From: Verrucomicrobiaceae bacterium
GTDB taxonomy: Bacteria > Verrucomicrobiota > Verrucomicrobiia > Verrucomicrobiales > Verrucomicrobiaceae
Direction: 5' to 3'
Assembly: GCA_027490195.1 (NCBI GenBank)
Contig: JAIXYN010000037.1
Span: 1-64,000, forward strand
Length of the DNA stretch: 64,000 nt
Shown here: positions 50,515 through 53,268 of the stretch, one piece after another
How positions within the stretch are numbered: the first letter of the stretch is position 1
How the letters are laid out: every line of letters starts with the position of its first letter
Program-made: the position numbers and the translations under genes
Notes under the pieces: generated by a model
Database searches by the model: none
Told to the model about the DNA's origin: nothing
The model's input: only the letters and a program-made list of their open reading frames with translations

Positions 50515-51258
50515 TCACACCGACTCGACTTTCCTCCGCCAGCGCATCCCCAGCGCCACGCTCCACTGATACTTCCGCGCGTGCTCGCGGATCAGAAACG
50601 GCATGTCGCAGGTCTTGGCCAGATCAAAGTGCGGCTCCAGCAGGGACGTGAGCCACTCACGCGTCGAACCCTGCGGCCAATTACCTCGTGGCGTGAAGTC
50701 TTCAAGCCAGGTGCAGGGCGTCGTCAGCAGCAGCTGTCCCCCAGGACGCACAAGCGATGGCAGACGCTCGATCAGCTTCAACGGATCGGTCAGACGGCAC
50801 AGCAAATTCGCCGCATGCACGATGTCGTAATCACCGAGGTCGCTGCGCAAGTTCATCGCATCCCCCTGTTCAAAACTCACACGGTCCCGTCGCAGATTCT
50901 CCGGCACGCGTGCCACGAGCGCCGTTTTCGCGCTGCCTTCATCCACACGCTCGTAGCTCATGCTGCCATCACGCGCCAGCGCCGCCGCCGCATCCACAAA
51001 ACTCTGCGAGTAATCAATGCCGAGCACACGCACGCCGAAATTCGCCAGCTCAAAACTAGAACGCCCCACTGCGCAGCCGAGATCCAGCGCCACCGCTTCA
51101 CAAGGCGTACGCGGCAAATCAATCAGCTCCGTCACCGTGCGCACCGGAAATCCCAGTGCTTCACGCGGCCCGCTTTCCCAGGGCAGCACCTCCATAGGCT
51201 GGCCGTAATGAAAAAGAAGGTATTCGTCGAGCAGGCGACGTGTCTCGTAGATGTTCAT
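50515..51258 (-). CDS. 4-mercaptohistidine N1-methyltransferase-like (OvoA C-terminal type)
   Basis: 247 residues from the ATG at 51258 (MNIYETRRLLDEYLLFHYG), the sequence style of OvoA C-terminal methyltransferases (YET...YLLFHYG ... FPVR). The SAM motif is VALDLGCAVGRSSFELANFG; later blocks are FDVIRE-like YDIVHAANLLCRL and LLTTPCTWLEDFTP. The enzyme would N-methylate 4-mercaptohistidine in ovothiol synthesis; stand-alone versions exist. The sulfoxide-synthase part of OvoA is not in this window, so the acceptor may differ. It follows the M29-like gene by 5 bases. Confidence 0.8.
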   Translation of the reverse strand: MNIYETRRLLDEYLLFHYGQPMEVLPWESGPREALGFPVRTVTELIDLPRTPCEAVALDLGCAVGRSSFELANFGVRVLGIDYSQSFVDAAAALARDGSMSYERVDEGSAKTALVARVPENLRRDRVSFEQGDAMNLRSDLGDYDIVHAANLLCRLTDPLKLIERLPSLVRPGGQLLLTTPCTWLEDFTPRGNWPQGSTREWLTSLLEPHFDLAKTCDMPFLIREHARKYQWSVALGMRWRRKVESV

Positions 51259-51263
51259 CAAGT

Positions 51264-52454
51264 CTATTCGGCGGCCAAAGCTTCCAACAAATACTTAGAC
51301 GGCTGGAAGTGCTCGTTCAAGACCGTGACCACACCATCGCGGAACATGCGTGTCTGTTTGATGTCAAAATTCGGCGTCTTGTGTGGTGCGAAGAGGATGT
51401 CGTCGTGCGTGGCGTTCTGATGGCGCTTGAACTTCTGCGGCGTGATGTGCCCGCCGAGATGGTCGTCTCGACCTGTGGCCAGATGGCAGGTGCCCAGCAC
51501 CTTTTCATCTTGAATGTCCGCCCCGGAAACAGGCAGCACCTGCGTGCCGAAACCAAGCTCGCCAAGCACACCCGTCATGGGATCATCAGCGAGTTTGGCA
51601 TTGTGTTCGTCAATCGTGCTCTGATTGCCTGCGATGAGCTCAGCCTTGATGATGCAACCACCTGTGACGGTGAGCTTGCCCAGAGTCCCATCCTCATATT
51701 TCAAAGGGAAAGTTCCTTCCGCACCCGTGGGCACGAAGTACACTTCACCCGCTGGCAGGTTTGCTATGTCAGGCGCATCCCCCTGGCAGAGGCCGTGGCT
51801 CTTCTGCGCTTCCTGACGGTTCAATTCGAGACGCACCGTCATGTCGGGGCCGTTCTCCACGGTGAAATCGATTTCCACCGCATCAGCGCGAGTCATCGCC
51901 TTGCGCAACTTTTCGGCATCAATGCTGACGACTTCATAATCAACCGCGAGGCCGGAATTCAGAATGACATCATTCACGCCATGCAGCGTTGCGCCACGGA
52001 AGCCATATTGTTTCGCGAACGCCGTCAGCGGCGCAGTGGCGGAGAAGGTCGAGATGCAGAGGATGATGTCGTAGTTGGGATAAACATCCTTTTCGAGGCT
52101 CAGCTCTTTGCCTTCCATATCAACACAAAGATCAGGCATGTCGAGATTGCTACCCGTCGTCTGCGTGTAGGCATATATTTCGCCTCCCTGCAGCGCGAGT
52201 TCTTCAGCCACACCATTTTTCAAACCCAAATGAAAGTGCTCATATGCTTTCTGCTGAATGGGCCTCGCCGGATTTTTTAGAAACGCATAACCTTTCGCTT
52301 CTGCGAGATCAGGAAGATCGATGAGAATGCAGATTTTGCGCCCAAAGGTGGGCTTGAACACGGTGCCGAGAAGGCGTGAGAGATCGAACTTGGGGAACTG
52401 GCGCCCTTGGGCAGTGGTTTGGACGGTTGGCATTGGAGCAGCGATCATAGGCAT
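51264..52454 (-). CDS. M29-aminopeptidase-like protein in an operon with an OvoA-type methyltransferase
   Basis: 396 residues. The C-terminal half reads like family M29 (thermophilic leucyl aminopeptidase/AmpT): LPAGEVYFVPTGAEG, GVLGELGFGTQVLP, DEKVLGTCHLATGRDDHLGG and NATHDDILFAPHKTPNFD, which hold the probable metal ligands (Glu, Glu, His, His, Asp). The N-terminal part (DIILCISTFSATAP, YDIILC) is a strand/helix domain. The product is cytoplasmic, with no signal. It ends 5 bases before the methyltransferase start, so both are almost certainly translated together. Confidence 0.7.
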   Translation of the reverse strand: MPMIAAPMPTVQTTAQGRQFPKFDLSRLLGTVFKPTFGRKICILIDLPDLAEAKGYAFLKNPARPIQQKAYEHFHLGLKNGVAEELALQGGEIYAYTQTTGSNLDMPDLCVDMEGKELSLEKDVYPNYDIILCISTFSATAPLTAFAKQYGFRGATLHGVNDVILNSGLAVDYEVVSIDAEKLRKAMTRADAVEIDFTVENGPDMTVRLELNRQEAQKSHGLCQGDAPDIANLPAGEVYFVPTGAEGTFPLKYEDGTLGKLTVTGGCIIKAELIAGNQSTIDEHNAKLADDPMTGVLGELGFGTQVLPVSGADIQDEKVLGTCHLATGRDDHLGGHITPQKFKRHQNATHDDILFAPHKTPNFDIKQTRMFRDGVVTVLNEHFQPSKYLLEALAAE

Positions 52455-52515: not shown

Positions 52516-53268
52516 TCACGCAAACTGATCCCACAGCAATTTCGCCACCATCGCCAGCACCACGGTGATGAAGATGATGCGGATGAACGGCGCCCCATGG
52601 CGAATCGCCATTCCAGCCCCCAGCCGCCCGCCAATGAGCTGCCCACAGATCATCGCCGCTGCGATTTCATAATTCACCCGCCCATAGGCCACGAAGACGA
52701 GCAGCGAAGCCATGTTGCTGGTGAGATTTGCAACCTTCGTGAAAGCCGTGGCGCGCGTCAGTTCCAGTCCCAGCAATGAAATGCAGACCAGCGTCCAAAA
52801 TGTGCCCGTGCCAGGACCAAAAAAGCCGTCATAAAAGCCGAGCACGCTACCCGCCAGGCACGCAAAACCTCCAAGCCTCAGCCGCGCCTTTGCCGCCGTT
52901 TTCCCCAAGCCCGGACTAAGCAGCACATAGACTGCAATGCCCAGCAGCATCCAGGGCACGATCTTTCTAAGGGCGTCGTTGCTCACTTGCGTCACCGTCC
53001 ACGTACCCAGACAGGCTGCCACAAACGTGATGCCCACCGTGAGCCTCACTTGCGACCACGAAACGAACCCTGCCTTCGCATACTTCCTCACCGCCATCAG
53101 CGTGCCCCACACGGCCTGCATCTTGTTCGTCCCCAGCGCCAATTGCGGCGGCAGTCCGGCCCACAGCAACGCCGGCACGGAGATCAATCCACCACCGCCT
53201 GCGATCGCATCGATGAATCCTGCACTGAGCCCGGCGACAAACAACAGCGTGATCGTTTCCCAGCTCAT
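52516..53268 (-). CDS. TSUP/TauE-SafE-family membrane exporter
   Basis: 250 residues with about eight hydrophobic helices. The N-terminal block GLSAGFIDAIAGGGGLISVPALLWAGLPP and its pseudo-repeat later (LAGSVLGFYDGFFGPGTGTFW) are the two halves of the TauE/SafE family, which moves organosulfur compounds, sulfite or anions across the inner membrane. The stop of the gene lies 3 bases past the start of the next minus-strand gene's frame end (53265), so the isomerase gene and this gene overlap slightly and share a transcript. Confidence 0.88.
   Translation of the reverse strand: MSWETITLLFVAGLSAGFIDAIAGGGGLISVPALLWAGLPPQLALGTNKMQAVWGTLMAVRKYAKAGFVSWSQVRLTVGITFVAACLGTWTVTQVSNDALRKIVPWMLLGIAVYVLLSPGLGKTAAKARLRLGGFACLAGSVLGFYDGFFGPGTGTFWTLVCISLLGLELTRATAFTKVANLTSNMASLLVFVAYGRVNYEIAAAMICGQLIGGRLGAGMAIRHGAPFIRIIFITVVLAMVAKLLWDQFA

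Follow-up and report, generated by a model that had tools for sequence, protein, structure and literature searches.

Two adjacent genes of a Verrucomicrobiaceae bacterium, referred to here as gene A and gene B, form a conserved, co-inherited pair in Verrucomicrobiota, in which a metalloprotein of the M29 peptidase/NicX fold accompanies a standalone methyltransferase of the ovothiol type. The occurrence of both genes without a known sulfur-inserting enzyme suggests a new route for placing sulfur on histidine, and we see roughly even chances that the pair serves to make an ovothiol-type thiol without OvoA. The genes lie on the minus strand of the window, the 64,000-nt stretch of contig JAIXYN010000037.1 analyzed in this work, in an assembly with an estimated completeness of 95.4%. 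Gene A (51264..52454) encodes a 396 aa uncharacterized protein of the M29/NicX fold, the proposed source of 5-thiohistidine, and is followed after 5 bases (ACTTG) by gene B (50515..51258), encoding a 247 aa protein, as counted from its ATG, that resembles the standalone 5-thiohistidine-type N-methyltransferases OvoM and OvsM. The gene A stop codon ends at 51264 and the gene B ATG begins at 51258; an alternative in-frame TTG start for gene B at 51261 would reduce the gap to 2 bases. Both reading frames are open and intact. The shared strand, the 5-base spacing and the coordinates agree with the original prediction, and the three motifs that it had placed in the partner protein were all found in gene A: GELGFG (residues 298–303), CHLATGRDD (323–331) and THDDI (349–353).

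The assignment of gene B as an OvoA-type methyltransferase is well supported. Its product scores 174.4 bits against the NCBIfam model for 4-mercaptohistidine N1-methyltransferase (TIGR04345, ovoA_Cterm), above the cut-off of 170, and its best solved relatives in a phmmer search of the PDB are OvsM (6e-45), OvoM (2e-40) and OvoA (2e-38). The AlphaFold2 model of gene B (pLDDT 94.4) superposes on seven OvsM, OvoM and OvoA entries with Z scores of 29.5–31.0 and rmsd values of 1.7–1.8 Å, with OvsM at the top (31.0), then OvoM with 5-thiohistidine (30.5; 1.8 Å over 233 residues) and OvoA (8khq, 29.6), and the next family, represented by the carnosine methyltransferase CARNMT1, follows at a Z of 19.6. 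In the OvoA (plus OvoB) system, gene B is thus the counterpart of the C-terminal methyltransferase domain of OvoA, which in addition carries a sulfoxide synthase half; this genome lacks such a half and instead has gene A, of unrelated fold, beside gene B. The OvoM of Sulfuricurvum and the OvsM of Marinimicrobium, known here from their PDB entries, are likewise standalone proteins of the same fold, sharing 40–44% identity with gene B over 227–233 aligned residues, but they are partnered by a synthase of the OvoA/OvsA type, whereas the partner of gene B is gene A. A methyltransferase tree was built from 111 extracted rows and 2 PDB rows, of which 89 remained after removal of identical sequences and 63 after thinning; L062, L110 and L199 (in-frame stop) and matches of fewer than 180 aligned residues were left out. 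Gene B did not group with the characterized OvoM, OvsM and OvoA domains in this tree but fell in a clade of its own (support 100/99), and it is therefore called a subfamily rather than OvoM itself; this separation also means that its substrate could differ. The two clades nonetheless share 29 conserved alignment columns, and the C-terminal motif PFLIREHARKYQ (residues 220–231, 50566..50601) is kept in gene B. Within this motif, 63 of the 70 standalone rows match R224, E225, R228, K229 and Q231 exactly, the others being five variants and two gapped rows. The standalone methyltransferases of the genomes that carry gene A exceed the TIGR04345 cut-off in 27 of 44 cases, and the remaining 17 score between 135 and 170 bits.

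A second line of evidence on the substrate of gene B comes from genomes that do encode OvoA. Among 288 Verrucomicrobiota genomes, a standalone methyltransferase of the gene B clade was found without gene A in only three (G163, G228 and G223), all of which carry OvoA, and conserved motifs are degraded in the methyltransferase domain of each of these OvoAs and in that of a fourth, from G128. In the degraded domains E225 is replaced by R or K, K229 by A, S or T and Q231 by D, the SPYTW motif reads CTNxW or SNYDW, and the domain of G223 additionally lacks N151 and R155. E225, K229, Q231 and SPYTW are all kept in the other nine Verrucomicrobiota OvoAs, in an OvoA from a Rahnella plasmid and in OvoM, and in OvsM all are kept except the last letter of SPYTW; the residues lost from the degenerate domains may be ones that bind substrate. 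No extra methyltransferase was detected at E <= 1e-15 in the nine genomes whose OvoA domain is intact. The simplest reading of these sequence patterns is that members of the gene B clade would be able to act in trans on 5-thiohistidine, the OvoA product, and the restriction of the extra copies to genomes with a degenerate OvoA domain indicates that gene B probably works on this compound. In the methyltransferase tree all four degenerate OvoAs group together in a single clade, so that few independent events are represented. The extra methyltransferases occupy two places in the tree, one near L137 and one near the f3 group, suggesting at least two separate retentions or gains. In the G223 copy, 3 of the 29 shared columns are altered, and G128, in which the degenerate OvoA gene is split, has no extra methyltransferase. 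Taking the modeled structure match together with the presence of the clade beside these OvoAs, we regard 5-thiohistidine as the likely substrate of gene B, with considerable confidence.

The N-terminal sulfoxide synthase half of OvoA is composed of DinB_2 and FGE-type domains, and both the OvoA half and the DinB_2 domain were sought in the genomes that carry gene A. In the genome under study, the best match to the OvoA N-terminal model (TIGR04344), for which the cut-off is 400 bits, scored 61.6, and the one DinB_2 match lies within a 220 aa open frame; the methyltransferase is therefore present without a recognizable synthase, as had been proposed from the locus. Matches to TIGR04344 above cut-off were found in 13 of the 288 genomes, and none of these carries gene A, so that a complete ovoA, which would have spoken against the proposal, is lacking above cut-off here and in the other 43 gene A genomes. 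Weaker TIGR04344 matches in G013, G134 and G166 we would call EgtB-like. When the 44 genomes with gene A and four OvoA control genomes were searched for DinB_2, all four control OvoAs were recovered, and the sole above-cut-off frame of sulfoxide-synthase length among the 44 was a 480 aa frame in G134, located at the TIGR04344 match of that genome. A further DinB_2 match in G066 lies in a 310 aa frame and long frames in G217 and G268 scored below cut-off; none of these three genomes has a TIGR04344 match at E <= 1e-25. Thus a recognizable sulfoxide synthase is lacking in 43 of the 44, a count that leaves room for a very divergent one, and gene A is the only candidate source of 5-thiohistidine recognized in them. 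Gene A and OvoA were not found together in any of the 288 genomes, with gene A absent from all 13 OvoA genomes. The probability of zero overlap is 0.11 across the 288 genomes and 0.0012 across the 101 with COX1, in both cases uncorrected for descent, and the non-overlap by itself is weak, non-significant evidence.

The association of gene A with gene B is much stronger. The same 288 genomes were searched for each gene, with orthologues of gene A accepted at E < 1e-130 and methyltransferases at a TIGR04345 E value <= 1e-15. Gene A orthologues were found in 44 genomes, while 15 others have only remote relatives (E 3e-26 or weaker), and TIGR04345 matches were found in 57. All 44 gene A genomes carry a standalone methyltransferase without an OvoA half, in open frames of 237–563 aa, and the set of 13 methyltransferase genomes that remains is identical to the set of 13 OvoA genomes. 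For the association of gene A with gene B over the 288 genomes, Fisher's test gives p = 8e-49, uncorrected for descent. Descent was taken into account with an rplB tree comprising 78 genomes, drawn from the 288 to include the methyltransferase genomes (57) together with 21 lacking the gene; G060 and G280, which had no rplB match, were left out of the 80 searched. The state of gene A changes 8 times on this tree, and in all 6 supported independent pairs, or all 5 under some pairings, gene B follows it, with a median p of 0.031 (range 0.031–0.063); viewed from the side of gene B, 6 of 8 supported pairs are concordant and the other 2 show no difference in gene A. By aligned ends, the two genes lie on the same strand within 200 nt of each other in 25 of the 44 genomes, representing nine family-level groups, at 0.4–2.0 kb in 8, and farther apart or on different contigs in 11, so that their co-occurrence holds even where they are separated. 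The coupling and conserved neighborhood anticipated from this single locus are thus borne out, and the pairing is far above chance. A second set of 89 gene A loci was compiled from 80 named contigs (the best 80 of 522 relatives) and 9 fetched stretches. Gene B is present within the covered stretch in 43 of these loci, shares the strand of gene A in 42 and is the adjoining gene in 35, and it was not found in the stretch covered at the other 46, 17 of which span 8 kb on both sides. No other neighbor of gene A is widely conserved across the 89 loci, the next most common families each appearing in 15 or fewer. A TauE/SafE gene is located just ahead of gene A in 13 of the 89.

The AlphaFold2 model of gene A (pLDDT 94.1) has as its nearest solved structure NicX, 2,5-dihydroxypyridine 5,6-dioxygenase, with a Z of 26.6 over 309 residues, an rmsd of 3.8 Å and 13% identity. 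M29 aminopeptidases follow (Z 17.9–18.7) and then the crocagin proteins CgnE (13.4) and CgnB (11.9); Foldseek likewise returned NicX first and PepS next. At the sequence level, gene A scores 22.0 bits against the Pfam M29 model (PF02073), a weak match under the gathering cut-off of 27 and far below the 264–274 bits of three canonical M29 proteins from the same phylum. No NCBIfam family matched gene A at E values up to 0.1, and a single-sequence search of the PDB gave no credible match. The M29 active-site set is EEHYHD and its catalytic Tyr is required for the activity of L. monocytogenes AmpII, as described in PMC7023490. Five metal ligands of this set correspond to E237, E299, H324, H350 and D352 of gene A, the same E, E, H, H and D found on the same fold in the aminopeptidases AmpT, AmpS and PepS, and they are invariant across 17 aligned family members, the three canonical M29 proteins included, making a two-metal hydrolase site possible. 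These ligands, together with H332, lie between E237 (in NLPAGE) and D352 (in THDDI), encoded at 51399..51746. The Tyr, which is the sixth residue of the set, is absent from gene A in the alignment and present in the three canonical relatives. H332 is invariant in 20 orthologues and in 8 relatives of about 30% identity. The segment QEAQKSHGLC (residues 214–223, 51786..51815) is invariant in 15 orthologues and carries a single change in 5 of the 20 sequences of the other set; in a profile alignment to 7cn3 it matches the NicX loop containing the substrate-contacting Glu177. According to PMC7910607, NicX is a dioxygenase with a single Fe(II), held through His265, Ser302, His318 and Asp320, and uses O2 to open a pyridine ring. 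His318 and Asp320 correspond to H350 and D352 of gene A, but His265 is replaced by Glu299 and Ser302 by Ala326, and NicX carries other residues at the positions of E237 and H324. Lacking both the M29 Tyr and two of the NicX iron ligands, gene A falls outside both subfamilies. It is accordingly not assigned by membership to the NicX-type dioxygenases, whose fold it has but of whose four iron ligands two are not conserved, and its classification as an ordinary M29 peptidase is not preferred, given the missing Tyr, the sub-threshold Pfam score and a fold that leans towards NicX.

The standard ovothiol pathway comprises three enzymes, according to a paper on 5-thiohistidine acetyltransferase (PMC12631010). 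In the route that we propose, gene A would act as an M29/NicX-fold metalloenzyme converting histidine and a sulfur donor to 5-thiohistidine or a direct precursor of it, standing in for the sulfoxide synthase of OvoA and forming the C–S bond probably with iron and oxygen. Gene B would then use SAM to methylate an imidazole nitrogen, yielding ovothiol A or a close relative. The two parts of the first step differ in strength: that gene A supplies 5-thiohistidine to gene B is about an even proposition, while the formation of the C–S bond by gene A itself, which would make it a new enzyme class, falls somewhat below that. The full form of the proposal, with gene A as a new class of C–S-forming metalloenzyme whose fold is unlike that of EgtB or OvoA, adding sulfur to C5 of histidine and providing, with gene B, an ovothiol-type thiol for aerobic Verrucomicrobiota, is about as tentative as the latter. 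To our knowledge, no M29-fold enzyme that forms C–S bonds has been described. The similarity to NicX, an enzyme in which Fe(II) and O2 serve to oxidize an N-heteroaromatic ring, was counted in favor of such an activity, and the metal ligands of gene A, which are those of M29 hydrolases and differ from the NicX set, were counted against it.

Gene A might instead be a hydrolase, a peptidase or amidase whose action on a peptide or conjugate frees 5-thiohistidine, or an amino acid related to it, as the substrate of gene B. The invariance of the five M29 metal ligands and the match of the fold to M29 aminopeptidases would be consistent with this, but the catalytic Tyr is missing, the PF02073 score lies under its cut-off, unlike those of the canonical members, and we know of no source of bound thiohistidine in genomes that lack a sulfoxide synthase. 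We consider this explanation unlikely, though not negligible given the intact ligands. The original prediction had placed gene A in a modified thiohistidine pathway, where it might make or hydrolyze a peptide-bound precursor; the pathway now appears likely, whereas the peptide-bound precursor is weakened by the M29 evidence and by the nearest fold being that of NicX, and gene A looks more like a stand-in for the sulfur-inserting half of OvoA than like a peptide hydrolase.

Two other arrangements appear less probable again. Gene B may methylate some other amino-acid-like substrate, with gene A handling that compound at an earlier or later step and ovothiol not being involved, as could be suspected from the separate clade of gene B, from the 17 standalone methyltransferases that fall under the TIGR04345 equivalog cut-off, and from the second methyltransferase in three OvoA genomes, which might perform a different methylation. 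Counting against this are the 29 columns and C-terminal motif shared with the OvoA/OvoM/OvsM clade, the close fit of the gene B model to OvoM with 5-thiohistidine, and the finding that, across the 288 genomes, an extra gene B accompanies only those OvoAs whose own domain is degenerate. To a similarly small extent we allow that gene A acts on the finished thiol, in its conjugation, repair or turnover, with 5-thiohistidine made by an unrecognized enzyme encoded elsewhere. Gene A is tied to gene B as tightly as a downstream partner would be, and since gene B alone is widely conserved near gene A, a third gene located elsewhere is possible. However, an enzyme that uses the thiol might be expected in genomes with OvoA, and gene A occurs in none of the 13, including those that keep a gene B. 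The reading that we prefer is the one in which gene A provides 5-thiohistidine for methylation by gene B.

Related thiol and selenol systems were also considered. The selenium version of the pathway, leading to ovoselenol, needs the selenophosphate synthetase gene selD, which was not found in this genome and was above cut-off in 3 of the 44 gene A genomes, with 1 more below it; the scarcity of selD argues for sulfur rather than selenium, and the ovoselenol pathway was rejected. N-methyl-bacillithiol synthase, NmbA, is a SAM-dependent methyltransferase that acts on a low-molecular-weight thiol, in its case bacillithiol, as described in PMC6282198. BshC was detected in 2 of the 288 genomes, neither of them a carrier of gene A, and methylation of bacillithiol by gene B was likewise rejected. 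Matches to glutathione synthetase (PF02955), at 55–74 bits in 22 of 57 genomes and absent from this genome, were too weak for interpretation. COX1 is present in 44 of 44 gene A genomes against 57 of 244 others, and in 11 of the 13 with OvoA, a distribution that would be in keeping with a step requiring oxygen or with a function as an antioxidant. Beyond the genome set, all readable names among the best 80 of the 522 gene A relatives on named genome contigs belong to Verrucomicrobia. Plasmid records contained only partial matches to gene A, at about 30% identity in 2 records; gene B matched 37 plasmid records, and among the 25 listed 14 matches lie within annotated ovoA genes. Eighteen stretches of viral contigs fitted the search pattern, and none of them encodes a relative. 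As the pair was mapped within Verrucomicrobiota genomes, our claim is limited to this phylum. A literature search, mainly of non-subscription papers, found no M29-like partner of a thiohistidine methyltransferase.

In 2018, Verrucomicrobia were described as a major lineage for which a low-molecular-weight thiol was neither documented nor predicted (PMC6282198). The pair described here is a concrete candidate for such a thiol system in the oxygen-respiring Verrucomicrobiota, and two genes suffice to put the question to the test. Formation of the C–S bond by gene A, if it does occur, would represent an independent evolutionary solution to the synthesis of thiohistidine and would add a new activity to the hydrolases and the dioxygenase already found among M29/NicX-fold proteins. 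Should the proposed route prove true, the absence of ovoA from a genome would no longer signify an inability to make ovothiol.

The fused OvoAs of four Verrucomicrobiota genomes (G223, G128, G163 and G228; loci L133-L136) form one clade in which conserved motifs have been lost from the methyltransferase domain. The sulfoxide synthase half of these proteins remains well above its cut-off of 400 bits, at 670-690 bits, and a separate methyltransferase was identified in three of the four genomes. In the G128 assembly, OvoA falls into two open frames (L281:2915-5726), separated by an apparent tandem duplication about 0.5 kb long that may be an assembly error. In G163 and G228 the additional methyltransferase adjoins a small gene, read as LemA-like, and a membrane protein gene, read as DUF2207-like (L192:3060-6529 and L193:4529-8265). 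The LemA-like copy at L193 matched the model of the magnetosome protein MamQ at 81.0 bits, under the cut-off of 250. In Proteiniphilum, an OvoA is flanked by neighbours of the same sort (PMC12631010).

A second relative of gene A, the M29/NicX-fold gene of the window, is found in two genomes (L166:2563-4109 and L171:2658-4074). It is ~30% identical to gene A and retains the metal ligands and the invariant H332; no methyltransferase of the gene B type was seen beside it. In both genomes it begins where a ybeY-like gene ends, of which the L166 copy was scored.

An M29-like domain also occurs with a serine O-acetyltransferase in a single 650-aa open frame of genome G037 (L173:2190-4139), the acetyltransferase part scoring 167.9 bits with the EpsC model (cut-off 150). 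Open frames of 650-654 aa with gene A-like matches are present in G043, G049 and G249. The L173 fusion may tie the M29-like fold to cysteine supply. Directly upstream of gene A, on the same (-) strand, lies a TauE/SafE-family exporter gene (window positions 52516-53268), which represents a possible link to sulfur. Of 89 loci with gene A (contigs of the best 80 of 522 relatives, plus nine further stretches), 13 retain this neighbour.
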